10,740 nucleotides of DNA from an uncultured Faecalibacterium sp. (lineage in GTDB: Bacteria > Bacillota > Clostridia > Oscillospirales > Ruminococcaceae), in contig CALDLZ010000203.1 in assembly GCA_937915335.1 (NCBI GenBank), positions 1-10,740 on the forward strand. The letters are read 5' to 3'. A program made the position numbers and the translations under genes. The notes under the pieces are model-generated. The model was not told the origin of the DNA, made no database searches, and saw only the letters and a list, made by a program, of their open reading frames with translations. Shown one piece after another: positions 137-9,091 of the stretch (position 1 is the first letter of the stretch; each line of letters starts with the position of its first letter).

Positions 137-1418
137 TGTTGTTGTCCTCATACCGTATCGTCACACTCTTCGCATGGGCGTGCAGGCCCTCACGCTCTGC
201 AAAATCCGCAATGCGGGGAGCCACCTCGCCCAGAGCTTCCCGGGTGTAGTAGATAAAGCTGGACTTCTTCACAAAGTCATCCACACCCAGCGGGCTCGAG
301 AAGCGGGCCGTGCCGCTGGTGGGCAGGGTGTGGTTGGGGCCCGCAAAGTAGTCGCCCAGAGCCTCGGGAACATTGCGGCCCAGGAAAATGCTGCCCGCGT
401 TCTTGATCTCGTTTAGCACGCCGAAGGGATCCTCCACGCAGACTTCCAGATGTTCCGGGGCGATGATGTTGCAGGCTTCAATGGCCTTGTGCAGATCGGT
501 GCAGACGATGATCTTGCCGTTGTCATCCACGCTGGCCCGGGCAATGGCGGCACGGGGCAGCTGGGGGATCTGCACCTCCAACTCTGCCTGCACGGCCTTG
601 GCAAGGTCAGCGCTGTCTGTAACGAGGACAGGGCTTGCCAGCTTGTCGTGCTCGGCCTGGCTCAGCAGATCGGCGGCCACCCAGGCGGGGTTGCAGCCGC
701 CGTCCGCCAATACCAGAATTTCGCTGGGGCCTGCGATCATATCAATGCCCACCTTGCCGAACACTTTCCGCTTGGCGGTGGCAACGTAGATGTTGCCGGG
801 GCCAACGATCTTATCCACAGCCGGGATGGTCTGGGTACCGTAGGCCAGGGCGGCCACGGCCTGCGCGCCGCCGGTCTTGAAAATTTTGGTCACACCGGCC
901 GTGGCGGCGGCGGCGAGGATGACGGGATTTACCTTGCCGTCCTTCCCGGCGGGGGTGGTCATCACGATCTCGGAAACGCCCGCCACCTTGGCAGGGATCA
1001 CATCCATCAGCACCGTGGAGGGGTAAGCCGCCGTGCCGCCGGGCACATAGACACCTGCCTTTTCAATGGGGGTATATTTCTGGCCCAGCACAATGCCGGG
1101 CTTGTCGTTCACCACAAAATTCTTGTGCACCTGCTGGCGGTGGAAGTGCTCAATATTGGCGGCGGCTTCCTTCAGGGTCTCCACAAAGTAGGGGTCCATG
1201 TTGGCAAAGGCTTCGTCGATCTCTGCCTGCGTCACCTGCAGGTTCTCAATTTTCGCCCCGTCGAACTTGAGGGCGTACTCCTTCAGTGCTTCGTCACCCC
1301 GGGCACGGACATTGGCAATGATGCCGTCCACCACATCCTCCACGTTCTTTTCCGCGCGGATGTCCCGGTTCAGGATTTCCTCGGGCCTGAGCTCGTCAAA
1401 ATTATACAGCTTGATCAT
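129..1418 (-). CDS. hisD: Histidinol dehydrogenase
   Basis: HisD is a zinc- and NAD-dependent cytoplasmic enzyme that oxidises L-histidinol to L-histidine in two steps, the last reactions of the pathway. At 429 residues the protein has the usual full length. Family signatures are clear: [16 protein letters not shown] at about 207-221, SQAEHD at 253-258, APEHLE at 320-325, [20 protein letters not shown] at 360-379 and GLHAHAKSV near the C-terminus. By comparison with the E. coli enzyme, the zinc and catalytic residues are present as Q254, H257, E322, H323, D356 and H415, so it should be active. The ATG is preceded by GGAGGA with about 6 nt spacing. It overlaps the stop of the upstream hisZG gene by 4 nt (ATGA) and the hisC start by 8 nt, so the three genes form a tightly coupled his operon. 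Confidence 0.97.
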
Positions 1419-3007
1419 TTTGTTTCCTCCTGCAAGGTCTTGCGCAGCTTTTCCAGCATGGTATCCATCTCTTTGTGCTTGAACTGATAGCTTGCCTTAT
1501 TGGCAATGATCCGGGCCGAGATGGGCATGAACTCGGTAACCACCCGCAGACCGTTCTCCCGCAGGGTGGTGCCGGTCTCCACGATATCCACAATGACATC
1601 CGAAAGACCCAGAATAGGGGCCAGTTCAATGGAGCCGTTCAGCTTGATGATATCGATATCTCGCCCGATGGACGCGTAATAGCTCTTTGCAATGTTGACG
1701 AACTTGGTCGCCACCCGCACCGGGCGGCTTGGATCGTCCTGATAGTCCGCCGGGGCGGCAACGCACATCCGGCACTTACCGAGGCCGGTGTCCAGCAGCT
1801 CGTAGACATCGGCGGAGGCCTCGGTCAGAATATCCTTGCCTACGATGCCCACATCCGCCGCGCCGTGCTCAACGTAAATTGCCACGTCACTGGGCTTGAC
1901 GAGGAAATACCGGATGCCCGCTTCAGGGTTCTCCACCACCAGCTTACGGGTGGCGTTGTAATCCTCGGTGCAGCCATAGCCGATACGGGCCAGTAAGTTA
2001 TAAACCTTGTCACCCAGACGGCCCTTGGGCAGGGCCACATTCAGCATGACCTTGTCCGTACTGTTCCGCTGCACCGGCGGGGTTGGAGCGCTCAGACGGT
2101 CAAGCTCGTCCAGATAGACCGCAAACCCGATGGCACCGGCCCCGGGGGTAAACTTCTGCATCAGCAGGTCGTAGCGGCCGCCCTTCAGCAGGGGGCGGGG
2201 CAAGCCCTGCAAATAACCCTGGAACACCAGACCGTTGTAGTATTCCATCTCACCGGCAAGGCTCAGATCCAGCCGGACGGCCCCGCCGGCGGCTTCCAGC
2301 GTTTTGGCCAGCGCACGCAGTTCGGCGGCGGCGGCACGCATCCGGTCGTTGCGGCAGGCAGCCTCGGCCTTTGCCAATGTCTCTTCATAGCTGCCGGAAA
2401 GCTCCAGCAGGCCGGTCAGGGCATCCGCCCCGGCATCATCCACGCCTGCGGCCCGCGCGGCCCTGCGCAGCTCGTGGGCGTTCTTTTCCCGCAGCTTTTC
2501 CAGCAGGCCGGGGCGGGCGACTTCCGGCACGCCCAGTGCGTCGAACAGGCCGAACAGGTAGCCCATGTGGCTGACTTCCAGCACCCAATCAGCCCCCAAC
2601 TGAGCCAGACTCTGTTCCGCCAGCCGGACAGCCTTCCACACCTGTTCTTCCCTCACCGTGCCCAGCATCTCAAGGCCCATCTGGGCAATCTCCTTGAAGG
2701 TGTGGCTCTCAGCCGAGGGGCGGTAAACGTTCTCGTGGTAGTAATATTGCAGGGTCTCGCCGGGGGCAGGCTGAGCCGTCTTGGCGATGGACAGGGTCAC
2801 ATCCGGCTTGAGGGCCAGCAGACGGCCATCCAGGTCGGTGAAGGTGATGACCTGCTCCGATGACAAGAAACTCCGATTCTCCTGATACAGTCCATATTCC
2901 TCAAAGCGGCCCATGTGGTACTTGCGGCAGCCCGCTGCCTCGTACAGTGCCCGCAGTGCAAAAGAAGCTCGTTCCTTGGGCTGTAAGCTTTCCAGACTGA
3001 ATTCCAT
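1415..3007 (-). CDS. hisZG: HisZ-HisG fusion: ATP phosphoribosyltransferase, regulatory plus catalytic parts
   Basis: One 530-residue frame carries two normally separate proteins. Residues 1 to about 308 are HisZ, the histidyl-tRNA-synthetase-like regulatory subunit (KPDVTLSIAKTA at 67-78, YYYHENVYRPS at 88-98, LKGGRYDLLMQ at 274-284, GAIGFAVYLDEL at 291-302). After a Pro/Ser/Thr-rich linker (about 303-318), residues 320-530 are a short-form HisG (LNVALPKGRLGDKVYNLL, KPSDVAIYVEHGAADVGIVG, and the PRPP-binding segment VDIVETGTTLRENGL at 473-487). HisG condenses ATP with PRPP, the first and feedback-controlled step of histidine synthesis. The short form lacks the C-terminal regulatory domain and in other bacteria needs HisZ as partner, so the fusion is functionally coherent. 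I chose the ATG at 3007 because GAGGGA lies 6-8 nt upstream and the transcript probably begins near 3048. A GTG at 3043 would extend the protein by 12 residues but leaves almost no leader. Confidence 0.93.
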   Translation of the reverse strand: MEFSLESLQPKERASFALRALYEAAGCRKYHMGRFEEYGLYQENRSFLSSEQVITFTDLDGRLLALKPDVTLSIAKTAQPAPGETLQYYYHENVYRPSAESHTFKEIAQMGLEMLGTVREEQVWKAVRLAEQSLAQLGADWVLEVSHMGYLFGLFDALGVPEVARPGLLEKLREKNAHELRRAARAAGVDDAGADALTGLLELSGSYEETLAKAEAACRNDRMRAAAAELRALAKTLEAAGGAVRLDLSLAGEMEYYNGLVFQGYLQGLPRPLLKGGRYDLLMQKFTPGAGAIGFAVYLDELDRLSAPTPPVQRNSTDKVMLNVALPKGRLGDKVYNLLARIGYGCTEDYNATRKLVVENPEAGIRYFLVKPSDVAIYVEHGAADVGIVGKDILTEASADVYELLDTGLGKCRMCVAAPADYQDDPSRPVRVATKFVNIAKSYYASIGRDIDIIKLNGSIELAPILGLSDVIVDIVETGTTLRENGLRVVTEFMPISARIIANKASYQFKHKEMDTMLEKLRKTLQEETK

Positions 3008-3054
3008 CTCTGTTCCCTCGTTCCCTTGTTTGGTATTTCCCACTTCTTTCGTCT

Positions 3055-3698: not shown

Positions 3699-3741
3699 AA
3701 AAAGGCGGCGGCCCGCCCCGCTGTGGGGAGGAGCCGCCGCC
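3699..3741 (-). terminator. Rho-independent terminator after the two leader-peptide genes
   Basis: On the minus strand GGCGGCGGC (3733-3741) pairs with GCCGCCGCC (3704-3712), with an inner CCCC/GGGG helix (3725-3728 with 3716-3719), followed by five T (3699-3703). It lies about 45 nt past the stop of the second peptide gene and closes that transcription unit. Confidence 0.85.
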
Positions 3742-3785
3742 CTGTGTTGTTCTTTGGAGTTCTCCGGGCTGTCTGGTCAGAACGA

Positions 3786-4130
3786 TCAGGCCGTGACCCA
3801 GGCGATTGCGGTAACAGGCCACCAACCGGTCAGGTTCAGAGCGGTGTAAACACCAACAATCGCATTGCCGATGGACTTGCCCATGTAATTGACAGCGGCA
3901 TCAATGCCCTTTGCTGCCAGATCGGTCACATTCTGACCATCCTTCTTATTGTTCTTGATCCAGGTACGGGTCTGATCCAGGCCCCAAATCAGGTTTGCAA
4001 CAGAAATAACCGCACCAATCGTCCAACCCACAGCAAACGGGGCGCTGAAAGAGTCGCCGCCACTGGTATAGGTCATTTCTTCTTCGTTCATCACATTGTA
4101 GTTCGCAGGCAGCATGAGCTTCTTTTCCAT
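3786..4130 (-). CDS. Double-glycine leader peptide, bacteriocin-like, second of a pair
   Basis: This 114-residue precursor has a 25-residue leader with LPANYNV at 7-13 and EEEMTYTSGG at 16-25. The Gly-Gly end is the site normally cut by a C39-peptidase ABC exporter, so the product is probably secreted. The predicted mature part has 89 residues and no cysteine, which argues against a lanthipeptide. It has a hydrophobic N-terminal stretch with GWTIG (GxxxG), an IWG motif, a Trp eight residues later, a basic/polar stretch (KNNKKDG) and a hydrophobic Trp-rich C-terminus (TGWWPVTAIAW). It is homologous to the upstream gene. The ATG has AGGAG 7 nt upstream. No exporter, immunity or modification gene is nearby. 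It could be a class II bacteriocin-like peptide, a signal or another small exported membrane-active protein; I cannot name a family. Confidence 0.8.
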   Translation of the reverse strand: MEKKLMLPANYNVMNEEEMTYTSGGDSFSAPFAVGWTIGAVISVANLIWGLDQTRTWIKNNKKDGQNVTDLAAKGIDAAVNYMGKSIGNAIVGVYTALNLTGWWPVTAIAWVTA

Positions 4131-4161
4131 AATAATACTCCTTTACAAAAAGCATTTATAT

Positions 4162-4181
4162 ACGGTGCTGCATCACACCGT
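4162..4181 (-). other. Hairpin between the two leader-peptide genes
   Basis: ACGGTG (4162-4167) and CACCGT (4176-4181) form a 6 bp stem with an 8 nt loop in the 89 nt gap between the two peptide genes. No T run follows, so it is not a normal terminator. It may be an RNA processing or stability element that sets the ratio of the two products, or chance. Confidence 0.3.
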
Positions 4182-4219
4182 GTGTTACAGAAAACAGACC
4201 CGATCTCCCACTTTCCGTT

Positions 4220-4570
4220 TTACAGGATCAGCAGGACAGCGCTCAGGGGAGCCAGAGCAACCACCATAGTGCTGGAAACAGCATCACGGATAAAGTTGGA
4301 AGCGGACTTGGACATATCCTCGCCGACAGCATCAGCGGCACGGCCCAGAATGGTGAAGAGGTTGCCCTCACGATTGCTCTTCTTGTTCAGCCAGTCCTTG
4401 GACACCGAGATGCCCCAGATGTAGCTGGCACCCAGCACCACGGCACCCACAACGGTAGCGGCAGTGGTCACAGCGCCGCCAACATCAACATCGGCACCGC
4501 CCTGGGTATAGGTCATTTCTTCTTCAGAAAGCACTGCGTATTCAGCAGGCAGATTCATGTTCTTGTTCAT
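4220..4570 (-). CDS. Double-glycine leader peptide, bacteriocin-like, first of a pair
   Basis: Taken from the ATG at 4570, this is a 116-residue precursor. It has a 25-residue leader containing LPAEYAV at 7-13 and EEEMTYTQGG at 16-25, the same length and layout as the downstream paralogue. The mature part (91 residues, no cysteine) begins ADVDVGG, then has a long Ala/Val/Gly hydrophobic stretch, a YIWG motif, Trp eight residues later, a polar KKSNREGN stretch and a hydrophobic C-terminus (MVVALAPLSAVLLIL). From IWG onward it aligns without gaps to its paralogue, sharing I-W-G, W, N, A, M-x-K-S, N and I. The open frame extends to 4621, but AGGAG 10 nt before 4570, the matching leader length and the promoter position support 4570. 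It is probably exported by a peptidase-ABC transporter encoded elsewhere; its activity is unknown. Confidence 0.8.
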   Translation of the reverse strand: MNKNMNLPAEYAVLSEEEMTYTQGGADVDVGGAVTTAATVVGAVVLGASYIWGISVSKDWLNKKSNREGNLFTILGRAADAVGEDMSKSASNFIRDAVSSTMVVALAPLSAVLLIL

Positions 4571-4644
4571 AGGTCTCATACTCCTTTTTGAGCAGCTTGA
4601 ACCGGTGGTCGTCTTTCCCAAATTCCCACCCTGTTTCCAGCCTT

Positions 4645-4673
4645 ATATTACTGCATTCCATAGTTTTATGCAA
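4645..4673 (-). promoter_or_regulatory. Promoter of the leader-peptide genes
   Basis: On the minus strand TTGCAT (4668-4673), a 17 bp spacer and TAATAT (4645-4650) precede the first peptide gene. Transcription would start near 4638, giving a leader of about 68 nt before the ATG at 4570. No second convincing promoter lies in the gap before the second peptide gene, so the pair is probably co-transcribed up to the terminator at 3699-3741. Confidence 0.6.
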
Positions 4674-4761: not shown

Positions 4762-5931
4762 TCAGCCTGCCACGCCCGCACGGTAGAGATACGGGTCTGT
4801 GGTAAAGCTGGCGTAGCTGTACAAAACCAGAATCTGGTCGTAGTCGTTGTCCGCGATGAGCTGGTCGAGCCCATAGTTATAGTTGCGGAAATCCACCACG
4901 TCAATGGCCGCATAGTTGGCGGTCAGATACGGCACAAAGCTGTTGGCATAGCTGTCCTTGATGACCAGAATTTTTCCGGTACCGTCCCCCTCCACCCGGC
5001 TCAGGCCGTTGTTGCCGTGCAGGAACATGGCGTACTTGTCGTACACCTCCAGCTTGTCCAGATCATACAGGCCGGTGGTGGTGCCCTCGGTGGGCTGGCC
5101 CGGGCCGGTGACATTCCAGATGGTCAGGCGGTTCTGCAGGTCGTACCAGGTAATGGTATCCGGCTCGGCGTTCCAGGTGCGGGCCTTGGAATAGTGGGTG
5201 CCATAGAAATCAGTACAAGTCTCGATCTCGTGGGCCTCCCGGTCAAAGGGGGTCAGGCCCAGCTGCTCACAGAGCTGCTGGTAAGCGTAGTAGGCCCCCA
5301 GCGTCGTCCAATGGTGGTCGGTGCGGTAGTAGAGGTACTCGTCCTTATGCTCGGTCAGGGTGGGCAGAACGTCGATGAACCGTCCGTAGTTGTCCCCCTG
5401 TGCGGCAATATTTTCGAGGATGCTCTTTTCGTCGATCTGCGGGGCCCCCGCCGGGACATTCTCGGGGTAGATCGTCGATGCCGACGGCACCAGCATGAAA
5501 TTCACCTTGCCCGGGTAGCGCTGGGCCAGGCTCTGGACGGCGGCAAGGTTCTTCGCCATCCCCTTTTCCTCATTTTGCAGCAGGCTGTAATGCCGGGCGA
5601 ACATCATGTGCTCCCTGCCCAGCAGGATGCCGCCGCTCTGGGTCTTTTGGAACAGAGTGGTCTCGGCAAGGCTCTGCAGGCTGATCCACTGGTCACGGCC
5701 GAACACCTGATCCTTGACATACTTGGTGTAACTGGTGAAGTAGTTGTTCAGCCCGTCGGCGGAGACAGCGCTCAACTTGGGCCGCTGGGTCAGGGTGGTA
5801 TTTTCCAATTCGCTGTACGCGCGGTCAGGCGTGACCATGTCCAGCACGAACAAGGCAATGAAGAACAGCCCGAAGGCAACGAGCACAGGGTACTGGAACA
5901 GAGAGGGAGTTTTCTTTGTATGCTTGTCCAT
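4762..5931 (-). CDS. DHHW-family (AlgX/AlgJ-like) surface O-acetylation protein
   Basis: This 389-residue protein has a short positive N-terminus and one membrane anchor (about 13-31), with the rest predicted outside the cell. The motif YYRTDHHWTTLGAYYAY (201-217) defines the DHHW family, related to the SGNH-hydrolase-like AlgX/AlgJ proteins. The putative triad is D205 and H207 of the DxH motif and S327 in ILVIKDSYANSF. In the alginate system these proteins move acetyl groups, supplied by an MBOAT protein, onto an exported polysaccharide. The gene begins 14 nt after the MBOAT stop, with GGAGG about 9 nt before its ATG, so the two are co-transcribed and probably work together. The acceptor here is unknown (peptidoglycan, capsule or another wall glycan). 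No polysaccharide synthesis genes are in the window. Confidence 0.85.
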   Translation of the reverse strand: MDKHTKKTPSLFQYPVLVAFGLFFIALFVLDMVTPDRAYSELENTTLTQRPKLSAVSADGLNNYFTSYTKYVKDQVFGRDQWISLQSLAETTLFQKTQSGGILLGREHMMFARHYSLLQNEEKGMAKNLAAVQSLAQRYPGKVNFMLVPSASTIYPENVPAGAPQIDEKSILENIAAQGDNYGRFIDVLPTLTEHKDEYLYYRTDHHWTTLGAYYAYQQLCEQLGLTPFDREAHEIETCTDFYGTHYSKARTWNAEPDTITWYDLQNRLTIWNVTGPGQPTEGTTTGLYDLDKLEVYDKYAMFLHGNNGLSRVEGDGTGKILVIKDSYANSFVPYLTANYAAIDVVDFRNYNYGLDQLIADNDYDQILVLYSYASFTTDPYLYRAGVAG

Positions 5932-5945
5932 TCAGAGATCCCTCC

Positions 5946-7364
5946 TCAGAAATTGAAATACAGGAACGGGCTGTTGGTGCTGCCCACCACGTAGGCCGTG
6001 GAGAGCACCAGCAGCACCAGCACCGTGGCCACACGGGTCACGGTGTGCCTGCGCAGGGCGTTCCAGAGCTTTTCGATGAGCGGGGTGCAGCAGATCACGC
6101 TGACCACCAGCAGCACGCCATAGTTGCGCAGGAAGTAGACCGGGGACGCGCCGCCCGAGGGGATGAAGAGCTTTTGGAACAGCAGGCCGAAGCCCACCCC
6201 GGCATCATTGCCCACGAACATGGCCCAGCCCACCACCACGAGGAACATGGTGTAGATGTGGGGCCAGACCCTGCCTTTTTCCAGGTGCTTGAGCAGGAAC
6301 AGCTTTTCAATGGCCAGCAGGACAAAATAATACAGACCCCAGCAGATGAAGTTCCAGTCAGCCCCGTGCCAGATGCCGGTGAGCAGTTCCACCACGAAGA
6401 GGTTGAAGATCTGCCGCTTCAGGCCCCTGCGGTTGCCGCCCAGCGGGATATACACATATTCCCGGAACCAGCCGGAAAGGGTCATGTGCCAGCGCCGCCA
6501 GAACTCAGTGATAGAACGGGAGATATAGGGGAAGTTGAAGTTCTGGGGGAAGTCAAAGCCCAGCATCTTGCCCATGCCAATGGCCATCATGGAGTAGCCG
6601 GAAAAATCAAAGTAGAGCTGGAGCGAATAGGCGATGACACCCAGCCAGACCAGTGGGGTAGAGGCATTGGCAAGGCCCACAAAGGTGGTGGTGGGACTGT
6701 CGGCAATGCCGATGATATCCGTCCAGAGCGCGCCAATGGCATCGGCCAGCAGGACTTTTTTCGCCAGACCAAAGGTGAACAGGGTCATGCCCTCCTCGAT
6801 CTGCTTCAGGCTGTAACGGTTTTTGTAGACATGCAGCTGGGCCGAGACATCCCGATACTTGACGATGGGGCCCGCAATGAGCTGGGGGAACATGACAACG
6901 TAAGCGCCGAAGTCGATGATGTTGTGTTCGGTTTTCACGTCCCGGCGGTAGACATCAATGGTATAGGAAAGGGTCTGGAACGTGTAGAAGCTGATGCCCA
7001 GCGGCAGGACACTGATGCCCTGGATCTCCGCAAAGGCGGTACCCAGCAGGCTGTTCAGGCTGCGCAGGACAAAGTTTGCGTACTTGAAGTAAAAGAGCAT
7101 CCCCAGACTGGCAGCCAGCGCCACCAGCAGCAGCGCCTTACGGGCGGCAGGATTTGCATCAAATCTTTCCAGCCCCAGACCGCAGAGGTAGTTGATGAGG
7201 ATAAGGGCCAGCATAACTGGGAAGAACCGGACCTCGCCCCAGCAGTAGAACACCAGACTGCACACGAAGAGCACGGTGTTCTTGAGCTTTGCGGGCGCAA
7301 GGTAGTACAGCGCCAGCGTGATGGGGAGGAAGCGGAACAGGAAGATGATGGTGCTGAAAACCAA
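5946..7364 (-). CDS. MBOAT-family membrane O-acyltransferase (AlgI/DltB-like)
   Basis: This is a polytopic membrane protein of 472 residues, the usual length for the family. It probably carries acyl groups across the membrane for transfer to a surface glycan by its DHHW partner. The family core is clear: PLGISFYTFQTLSYTIDVYR (121-140), FPQLIAGPIVKYRD (159-172), YFDFSGYSMMAIGMGKMLGF (251-270), ITEFWRRWHMTLSGWFREYV with H293, and LLTGIWHGADWNFICWGLYY with H333, the invariant MBOAT histidine. I placed the start at a TTG (7364), giving MVFSTIIFLFRFLP, the normal N-terminus of such proteins. AAGGAGG lies 8 nt upstream and no ATG fits. The longer frame from an upstream ATG would run through a terminator hairpin. 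The D-alanyl-transfer protein DltB is related, but no dlt genes are present and the DHHW neighbour fits AlgI/PatA-like O-acetylation better. Confidence 0.9.
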   Translation of the reverse strand: MVFSTIIFLFRFLPITLALYYLAPAKLKNTVLFVCSLVFYCWGEVRFFPVMLALILINYLCGLGLERFDANPAARKALLLVALAASLGMLFYFKYANFVLRSLNSLLGTAFAEIQGISVLPLGISFYTFQTLSYTIDVYRRDVKTEHNIIDFGAYVVMFPQLIAGPIVKYRDVSAQLHVYKNRYSLKQIEEGMTLFTFGLAKKVLLADAIGALWTDIIGIADSPTTTFVGLANASTPLVWLGVIAYSLQLYFDFSGYSMMAIGMGKMLGFDFPQNFNFPYISRSITEFWRRWHMTLSGWFREYVYIPLGGNRRGLKRQIFNLFVVELLTGIWHGADWNFICWGLYYFVLLAIEKLFLLKHLEKGRVWPHIYTMFLVVVGWAMFVGNDAGVGFGLLFQKLFIPSGGASPVYFLRNYGVLLVVSVICCTPLIEKLWNALRRHTVTRVATVLVLLVLSTAYVVGSTNSPFLYFNF

Positions 7365-7372
7365 GGCTTCGA

Positions 7373-7379
7373 CCTCCTT
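7373..7379 (-). promoter_or_regulatory. Ribosome binding site that fixes the TTG start of the MBOAT gene
   Basis: AAGGAGG on the minus strand stands 8 nt before the TTG at 7364. It starts almost directly after the T run of the preceding terminator. A weak alternative hairpin, GGCTT (7386-7390) with AAGCC (7365-7369), would enclose it. Confidence 0.8.
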
Positions 7380-7380
7380 C

Positions 7381-7410
7381 AAAAAAAGCCGATGCCGCCA
7401 CGGCATCGGC
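7381..7410 (-). terminator. Strong terminator between the DUF4358 gene and the MBOAT gene
   Basis: On the minus strand CCGATGCCG-type arms (7401-7410 with 7388-7397) form a perfect 10 bp GC-rich stem with a 3 nt loop, or 9 bp with a 5 nt loop, followed by seven T (7381-7387). It lies 18 nt past the DUF4358 stop. Its T run almost touches the MBOAT ribosome binding site, so no promoter can fit between them. MBOAT expression must come from read-through or from a promoter upstream of the hairpin. Confidence 0.9.
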
Positions 7411-7427
7411 CTGTACAATTCTCTTTT

Positions 7428-8015
7428 TTACTCAGCCAGAGCGGAGTCCACGGCGCTGTCCAGATCGGCAGTGCACTCGTTGGAGGCGATGACCATGACC
7501 ACGGTGTTATCCTTGAAGGCGATCACAGCGTTCTCCACATTGTCCTGTGCCTGTGCGAACTCGGCGTAGTTGCCGTAGAAGGCCACCTGATCCTGCTGGT
7601 AAGCCTGCAGGGCCTCGGCCACATCCTGTGCCTTGCCGTCAGCGGCCTCGATGACCAGCACCAGGCCGGCATCGCCGTTGTCGTTGCTCTTCACGCCCTT
7701 GTAGCTCACCACATCGTCAGCGGGCAGGTTGAAATCGTACTCAATGTTCATGGCGGCGATCTCAAACTGGTTGGAGATGGGGTTGGCATCCAGCAGGGTC
7801 TCAAAGGGAGCATTCAGCGCGTCAGTGCTGTTATCCTCGCCCAGGGTGATGCTGGAGGCCTGGCTCAGCACGGTGGAGCCGGGCACAGAGGAAGCATCCT
7901 CGGAAGACGCGGCGGAAGAAGCTGTATTGCTGGAAGAAGAACCGCAGCCGGCCAGCAGAGCACAGCTCAAAGCCAGAGAAGCAGCAGTCAGAATGATTTT
8001 AGCACGAAGTTTCAT
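7428..8015 (-). CDS. DUF4358-type lipoprotein
   Basis: This 195-residue protein has a lipoprotein signal peptide with lipobox LLAGC, so C24 should be lipidated and the protein held on the outer face of the membrane. A Ser/Ala-rich linker follows (about 25-60) and then a globular C-terminal domain. The pattern there (MNIEYDFNLPADDVVSYKG, LVLVIEAADGKAQDVAEALQ, VIAFKDNTVVMVIAS) fits my knowledge of DUF4358, small Firmicutes lipoproteins of unknown function often found near MBOAT/DHHW genes. The ATG has AGAGGGA with about 8 nt spacing. The gene has its own promoter and a strong terminator, and the MBOAT gene starts 63 nt past its stop. A role as accessory factor for surface O-acylation is an inference from position only. 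The DUF assignment is from memory. Confidence 0.75.
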   Translation of the reverse strand: MKLRAKIILTAASLALSCALLAGCGSSSSNTASSAASSEDASSVPGSTVLSQASSITLGEDNSTDALNAPFETLLDANPISNQFEIAAMNIEYDFNLPADDVVSYKGVKSNDNGDAGLVLVIEAADGKAQDVAEALQAYQQDQVAFYGNYAEFAQAQDNVENAVIAFKDNTVVMVIASNECTADLDSAVDSALAE

Positions 8016-8089
8016 GGATTATTCCCTCTTTTATCTGTTTTACACCCGGCCCGCCCACACGGAACAGTTTCCGACAGCGAACCATTGTT

Positions 8090-8118
8090 ATCTTACCATA
8101 TCATAGCCCGAAATGCAA
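8090..8118 (-). promoter_or_regulatory. Promoter of the DUF4358 lipoprotein gene
   Basis: On the minus strand TTGCAT (8113-8118), a 17 bp spacer and TAAGAT (8090-8095) precede the lipoprotein gene. The start would be near 8083, with a leader of about 68 nt. It may also supply the MBOAT and DHHW genes by read-through. Confidence 0.6.
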
Positions 8119-8164
8119 ACGACGAATCCAAGATTTTACGTTTTCTTCACCGGTGCTTTGCCGC

Positions 8165-9091
8165 TCAGTCCACAATGGCGTGCAGGGCAGCGATGTAGTC
8201 CTCAAAGCACAGGCCGCTGGCGTTGATTTTGGCGGCGTTCTCCACGCCCACATAGCGCCAGTGCCAGGGTTCGTAAGTGATCTCGGTCTGTTCCTCGGCT
8301 CCCTTGGGGTAGCGCAGAATGAAGCCGTACTCCCCGGCATGCTGGCAGAGCCAGCGGAAGGCCGTTGTGTTCTCAAAGCCCTCGTCCAGACCGGTGTGCT
8401 CGGGGCTGTTCAGGTCAGCGGCCAGACCGCAGTTATGCTCGGAATAACCCGGCGGGTTGACGATGGCGGCAGCCTTTTCTTTGGCGGTGGCCTCGTCATA
8501 GCCCTGCTGTTTATAATAGTTGGTCTTTTTCTCGTAAAGGCTGGTCTGGTACTCCACACTGCGGTAGCCGCTCTGCATCCAGATGGTCACGTTCTCAGCG
8601 GCGGCGGCCTTCTGCATCTCGAGGAAGGCGTTGCAGGCTTCCACCTGCAGCTTCTTGTTCACGGCTGTCTTGGAGCCGCACTCGGCGGTGTCAAAGGTGT
8701 AGTTGTCCGGCATCTTGTTGGTGTGGTTCACCAACACCATCATGGGGTCGGCCAGCATGGCGGCGGCCTCCTCCTTCGTCAGGCCCAGGACGTTATCCCG
8801 GCTCTCGGTGCTCTCGGAAGCAGCCTCGCTCACGGCGCTGCTCTGGGCCTTGCTGCTGCTCAAAGCATCAGACAGCAGGCCATTATCGGTCGCACTGCTG
8901 GCAGAAGCACCGGCGGCATCCGCCGTGGGTACCGGGGCCTTGCGGCGGGAAAGCAGGAAGGACACACCGCCCACAGCCACGCAGACCACAAGGGTCAGCC
9001 CGGCCAGACGGCGGATGGCACGGTTGCGCCGTCTGCGCCTGATCTCCGCGCGGGTCAGGCGGCGGCGGTGAATGGGTTGCTGCTGGTTCAT
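8165..9091 (-). CDS. VanY-like D-alanyl-D-alanine carboxypeptidase (peptidase M15B)
   Basis: This is a zinc peptidase predicted to remove the terminal D-Ala from peptidoglycan stem peptides outside the cell. It has 308 residues: a very Arg-rich cytoplasmic tail (about 9-28), one membrane anchor (about 29-48), a Ser/Ala-rich spacer (about 55-98) and the catalytic domain. Family motifs are complete: SGYRS (174-178), GYSEHNCGLAADL (215-227, zinc ligands H219 and D226) and EPWHWRYVG (274-282, catalytic E274 and zinc ligand H277). The ATG is preceded by GAAGG at about 6 nt. It stands alone and divergent from spoVAC. No vanA/vanH/vanX, vanR or vanS genes are present, so a housekeeping or spore-cortex-related wall role is more likely than glycopeptide resistance. 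I saw no clear terminator before the DUF4358 promoter. Confidence 0.92.
   Translation of the reverse strand: MNQQQPIHRRRLTRAEIRRRRRNRAIRRLAGLTLVVCVAVGGVSFLLSRRKAPVPTADAAGASASSATDNGLLSDALSSSKAQSSAVSEAASESTESRDNVLGLTKEEAAAMLADPMMVLVNHTNKMPDNYTFDTAECGSKTAVNKKLQVEACNAFLEMQKAAAAENVTIWMQSGYRSVEYQTSLYEKKTNYYKQQGYDEATAKEKAAAIVNPPGYSEHNCGLAADLNSPEHTGLDEGFENTTAFRWLCQHAGEYGFILRYPKGAEEQTEITYEPWHWRYVGVENAAKINASGLCFEDYIAALHAIVD

Follow-up and report, generated by a model that had tools for sequence, protein, structure and literature searches.

Two adjacent genes of an uncultured Faecalibacterium, here called A and B, encode paralogous precursors with a common double-glycine (GG) leader that, with one exception, is present or absent across the genus together with a single strong PCAT exporter. 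Taken as a whole, the reading we consider likely is that A and B are added cargo of the putative exporter of MAM (microbial anti-inflammatory molecule) and are associated with the envelope or membrane. We infer that the A and B precursors would give rise to two small, rather hydrophobic helical proteins after their leader had been recognised, and cut behind the GG, by the single Faecalibacterium C39 PCAT encoded elsewhere in the genome. That PCAT would be the one already proposed as the MAM exporter, A and B being exported in trans, and the mature proteins would be released from the cytoplasm and most likely be retained by the envelope or membrane, which is where MAM has been reported in Faecalibacterium (PMC8836110 and PMC12184118). 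Because A, B and several other families bear nearly the same export tag as MAM, the exporter thought to ship MAM probably ships all of them. The near-identity of the A/B leader to the MAM leader, as judged from the sequences, was overlooked in the first-pass annotation of this DNA.

Genes A and B and their genomic slot

The window, by which we mean the whole 10,740-nucleotide stretch analysed, carries both genes on its minus strand, 89 bases apart. Based on sequence and homologues, gene A (4220-4570), the first of its slot, encodes a 116-aa precursor and gene B (3786-4130), the second, one of 114 aa. As first annotated, both leaders are 25 residues long and share LPA-x-Y-x-V and EEEMTYT-x-GG (25 codons with the GG at their end, 4496-4570 in A and 4056-4130 in B, delimited from sequence, leader profile and position counts), and the mature parts are cysteine-free, with 91 residues in A and 89 in B. 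Mature A (4223-4495) has two hydrophobic stretches according to its sequence and a membrane-span scan, and mature B (3789-4055), for which a structure model was also used, is predicted to be all-helical. The mechanically called reading frame of A begins with a TTG at 4621; we favour the ATG at 4570 because of the AAGGAG at 4581-4586, the likely ribosome-binding site of A, and because of the start positions of homologues. An AAGGAG is likewise the probable ribosome-binding site of B (4138-4143, minus strand as for A).

A promoter and a terminator belonging to the two genes had also been claimed. The terminator was borne out, in that a hairpin 3' of B on the minus strand (3702-3743), followed by a T run, folds with its flanks at -42.4 kcal/mol (z -6.9). 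The promoter fared unevenly: a consensus scan upstream of A gave no match, but a TTGCA-N-17 nt-TAnnAT arrangement is common to the window and five genomes, and its window copy on the minus strand (4645-4673; TTGCAT at 4668-4673, 17 nt, TAATAT at 4645-4650) is the likely promoter of A.

BLASTP aligns A with B at 31% identity across 115 columns (E 1e-17), with gaps solely before IWG, which agrees with the paralogy and the ungapped alignment from IWG onward noted earlier, and the two family profiles match at 99.8% probability with the leader included. At E <= 0.001 there were 305 homologues of A, of which the best 120 were listed, and 73 of B; the alignments were built from hand-chosen sequences (A1, n=31; A2, n=21; A5, n=31; A6, n=39). 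Many of the B homologues between P0123 and P0193 are singletons that carry internal deletions in frame, have displaced C-termini or are fused to unrelated genes (P0144 with PF00381, P0185 with PF00475), and from their sequences these are probably assembly chimeras arising from very abundant templates.

When genome contigs were scanned for the A family, 12 loci were found among 41 pattern matches and all 12 were from Faecalibacterium. The nearest genome among those compared, G014 (hisD 97%, DHHW 92%), has both A and B. Relative to G014, the mature parts have dN/dS values of ~0.17 (A) and ~0.14 (B), indicating purifying selection. A/B-type genes are found in 26 of the 27 genomes in which the leader was detected (the exception is G027), and their surroundings are stable: a DHHW gene lies 5' of the first cargo gene in 26/26 loci, and the full order SpoVAD-SpoVAC, VanY, DUF4358, MBOAT, DHHW, cargo is seen in 24 of these, the stretches of the other two (L095 and L101) beginning too late to show it. 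Downstream, trxA-hisZG-hisD follows the slot in the window and three loci (L001, L088 and L103), and an ORF read as dnaJ, on the opposite strand, follows it in 21 others. In the window, the DHHW/AlgX-like, MBOAT, DUF4358 and VanY genes occupy 4762-9091 on the minus strand, upstream of the slot as in nearly all loci, and the pairing of exported proteins with a cell-wall or polymer O-acetylation function may not be a coincidence. On the other side, at 1415-3043, a single ORF joins HisZ-like (tRNA-synt_His) and HisG domains.

The content of the slot is less fixed than its position. Among 27 loci, window included, it holds two genes in 19, three in seven and one in a single locus that lies at a contig end; by our reading the first gene is A-type in 24 of the 27, and those after it differ in type from species to species. 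Neighbours within a locus have leaders that are on average 65% alike and mature parts that are 28% alike (40 pairs). No immunity-like ORF of at least 45 aa recurred up to 3 kb downstream in the 27 loci, and among the downstream ORFs listed those that recur belong only to the dnaJ/dnaK strand and the trxA region. As it was worded, the earlier proposal of a two-component bacteriocin-like or signalling system, taken as a fixed pair, finds no support in this picture of one to three genes, varying later types and no recurrent immunity-like ORF.

The accompanying statement that neither an exporter nor an immunity gene lies nearby was upheld for the window: none of the nine neighbouring ORFs matched an ABC exporter, a histidine kinase, a response regulator or a lanthipeptide synthetase in Pfam, and we recognised no immunity gene. 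These neighbours also bear on whether mature A and B are pheromone-like signalling proteins exported by the PCAT. Pheromones are indeed among the exports of PCATs (PMC8836110), but the A/B cargo is long and helical and there is neither a histidine kinase nor a response regulator among the nine neighbours, so that we regard a signalling role as very improbable.

A leader set that accompanies one PCAT

Does the leader occur more widely, and does an exporter go with it? The leader-profile search that had been suggested (25 positions, E <= 0.01) gave 147 matches in 27 of 31 Faecalibacterium genomes, with two to seven per genome. With matches below 14 bits or without GG removed, 144 proteins were kept and, together with the two of the window, form a set of 146, which is for this reason not identical with the 147 matches. 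The GG of all 146 is present by selection; P(-18) and a hydrophobic residue or T at -4 are each found in 145, and E(-8) and M/L(-7) each in 144. The PCAT pattern given by the MAM authors comprises positions -12, -8, -7, -4, -2 and -1 (PMC12184118), and by reading both window leaders fit it (hydrophobic -12, E -8, M/L -7, -4 and GG at -2/-1). P(-18) is also a position whose alteration had a modest negative effect on secretion by the pneumococcal RtgAB (PMC7018657).

An exporter encoded elsewhere had been predicted, and in the relatives of the window one is present: 26 of the 31 Faecalibacterium genomes, G014 included, have one strong PCAT locus (PF03412, matching in two pieces of one gene), although the export step itself is inferred. 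Of these genomes, 25 have an open frame of at least 776 aa; the frame of G030 (L154:1063-3392) is split into ORFs of 198 and 564 aa, through either an error in the sequence or a genuine interruption of the gene, and five leader genes are kept in that genome. The peptidase residues of F. duncaniae PCAT are given as Cys14, His92 and Asp136 (PMC12184118), and in an alignment with PCAT1 the G014 protein keeps the peptidase Cys, His and Asp. Small proteins with an NKTLKLTNV-like start occur in the PCAT neighbourhoods L089, L142, L150 and L151, a HlyD-like protein is common to L089, L142, L143, L150 and L151, both are also seen outside Faecalibacterium, and an Ig-like gene adjoins in L150 and L151; these proteins may serve the exporter as accessory components.

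Wherever a strong PCAT is present, in all 26 genomes, the leader is matched too. The leader profile found nothing in G022, G023, G024 and G028, all of which are without a strong PCAT (PF03412 gave no match in G022, G023 and G028 and a weak one in G024). The counterexample among the five is G006, a 1.8 Mb assembly that has leader genes without a PF03412 match. A split of this kind has a chance of 5/31465, or ~1.6e-4, if kinship is ignored, and shared ancestry makes that figure optimistic.

To gauge specificity, leader and C39 profiles were run at E <= 0.001 against 247 genomes drawn from the family. The leader was matched in six, namely Faecalibacterium G004, G019 and G020 and the non-Faecalibacterium G087, G210 and G274, whereas C39 was matched in 63, including all six, so that the leader does not simply come with any C39 gene. 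Whole-length A-type matches were confined to G004, G019 and G020, those in the other three covering at most positions 1-49. In all three of the latter the contig that carries the leader genes also has a C39 gene, at most ~6 kb away from them: that of G210 adjoins two leader genes and is 60% identical to the G014 PCAT, and in G274 HlyD-like and Ig-like genes sit between leader genes and C39 gene.

Might the leader-like segment stay uncut, A and B being intracellular or simple membrane proteins? In favour of this, A has two membrane-span-like stretches. Against it, the leader has a dN of 0 in both A and B between window and G014, it is absent from members of the genus without a strong PCAT, and the same leader fronts ten clusters of mature parts, with no detectable links among the six groups compared. 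An uncut segment is accordingly hard to credit. Export of A and B by the Faecalibacterium PCAT is, on the sequence evidence, what we would expect with considerable confidence.

Mature proteins and their probable place

The mature parts of the 146 leader proteins fall into ten clusters, of 60, 34, 26, 12, 6, 3 and 2 members and three singles. The largest is the A/B superfamily, found in 26 genomes and the window with mature lengths of 82-109 residues; MAM forms the second (34 members in 24 genomes), and the start of the G014 member is by reading the same as the 42-residue F. duncaniae MAM peptide printed in PMC12184118. The third cluster is present in 26 genomes (mature length 114-131 residues), and another, occurring in 12 genomes, has mature parts of only 49-54 residues. 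Comparing the profiles of the six largest groups, with one stray A/B-type protein left out, gave no link, and between mature A/B and mature MAM hhalign returned a probability of 0.1 and an E of 0.58, i.e., no detectable homology. A membrane-span-like stretch is present in 57/60 members of the A/B superfamily, in 3/34 of the MAM cluster and in 11/26, 0/12 and 6/6 of the next clusters. The B model consists entirely of helices (30-61, 68-83, 87-102 and 104-113; mean pLDDT 76.4), and that of A has a helix order like that of B at low confidence (54.3). Comparison of the B model with solved structures gave no clear match.

No described family had been recognised for the mature parts earlier, and A and B stay under every curated cut-off in Pfam and NCBIfam. 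Neither is described in the accessible portions of the literature consulted, including PMC12184118, PMC8836110, PMC7018657, PMC12648078, PMC10781979, PMC9674144 and PMC4573289. Type 2 lantibiotics, to which the lichenicidin and mersacidin models belong, were considered and rejected: mature A and B have no Cys, there is no lanthipeptide synthetase among the nine neighbours and the matches are under cut-off. Where its position was shown, the sub-cut-off match of A to bacteriocin or lantibiotic models starts in the leader.

What would A and B do once outside? They could be bacteriocins, acting singly or as two peptides, that are exported by the distant PCAT and insert into the membranes of competitors. 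A GG leader on tandem paralogues, later slot genes that differ between species, the frequency of membrane-span-like stretches and weak matches to Bacteriocin_IIc (5/31 members of the B set, best E 6.1e-5, and 3/39 of the A set) and to the lichenicidin model (10/39 of the A set) are all in keeping with this, and it is for the hydrophobic cargo and the varying later genes that we retain it. However, class IIb mature peptides are about 25-60 residues long and those of the superfamily are considerably longer, no recurrent immunity-like ORF accompanies them, A and B are under all curated cut-offs, and a slot filled in nearly every leader-positive genome is unlike a patchy weapon. We consider bacteriocins possible but a weaker reading than an envelope or membrane role, and on balance unlikely. 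Three points lead us to prefer the envelope or membrane role: the slot is stable and seldom empty, no immunity candidate was found, and MAM is reported in the envelope. Given export, we put the envelope role at about an even chance and hold antibacterial action to be rather doubtful, the remainder falling to other roles; the argument from analogy with MAM is weak because mature A and B have no link to MAM and are more hydrophobic. More tentatively, the genus as a whole may rely on one PCAT for the export of seven recurring cargo clusters (A/B, MAM and five others) whose genes lie at scattered loci, with A and B contributing to the assembly or adjustment of the surface reportedly formed by MAM.

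Faecalibacterium ranks among the major commensals of the gut, and of its protein effectors MAM has been studied best. Should the proposed MAM exporter also ship A, B and other families, its loss would take away much besides MAM, and some of what has been attributed to MAM or to whole cells may be due in part to proteins exported alongside it. The leader profile supplies candidates that can be looked for directly in proteomic data, existing or new.

Comparison with known systems

Class IIb two-peptide bacteriocins resemble A and B in having a GG leader and two neighbouring, unmodified, hydrophobic products, but A/B-type cargo is longer, is encoded by one to three genes per locus and has neither an adjoining exporter nor an immunity candidate that we could find. 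MAM is closer in its leader, which is nearly the same (PANY..V...EMTY.xGG), in its genus and in having the same single PCAT available, and its three reported helices (37-70, 74-86 and 100-119; PMC12184118) resemble the helix order of the B model, which we take as a lead only. A and B differ from MAM in that they do not fit the published MMMPANx(8,11)VxGG (same source), having a different start and TxGG instead, in that their mature parts are more hydrophobic and without detectable homology, and in that they are at another locus, away from the PCAT in the loci compared. The Rtg GG peptides of Streptococcus pneumoniae are encoded inside the rtg locus, whereas the Faecalibacterium cargo is scattered and longer; in both systems the leaders have a conserved N-terminal part that includes P(-18), and one PCAT, RtgAB in the pneumococcus, is matched with a set of cargo proteins (PMC7018657).
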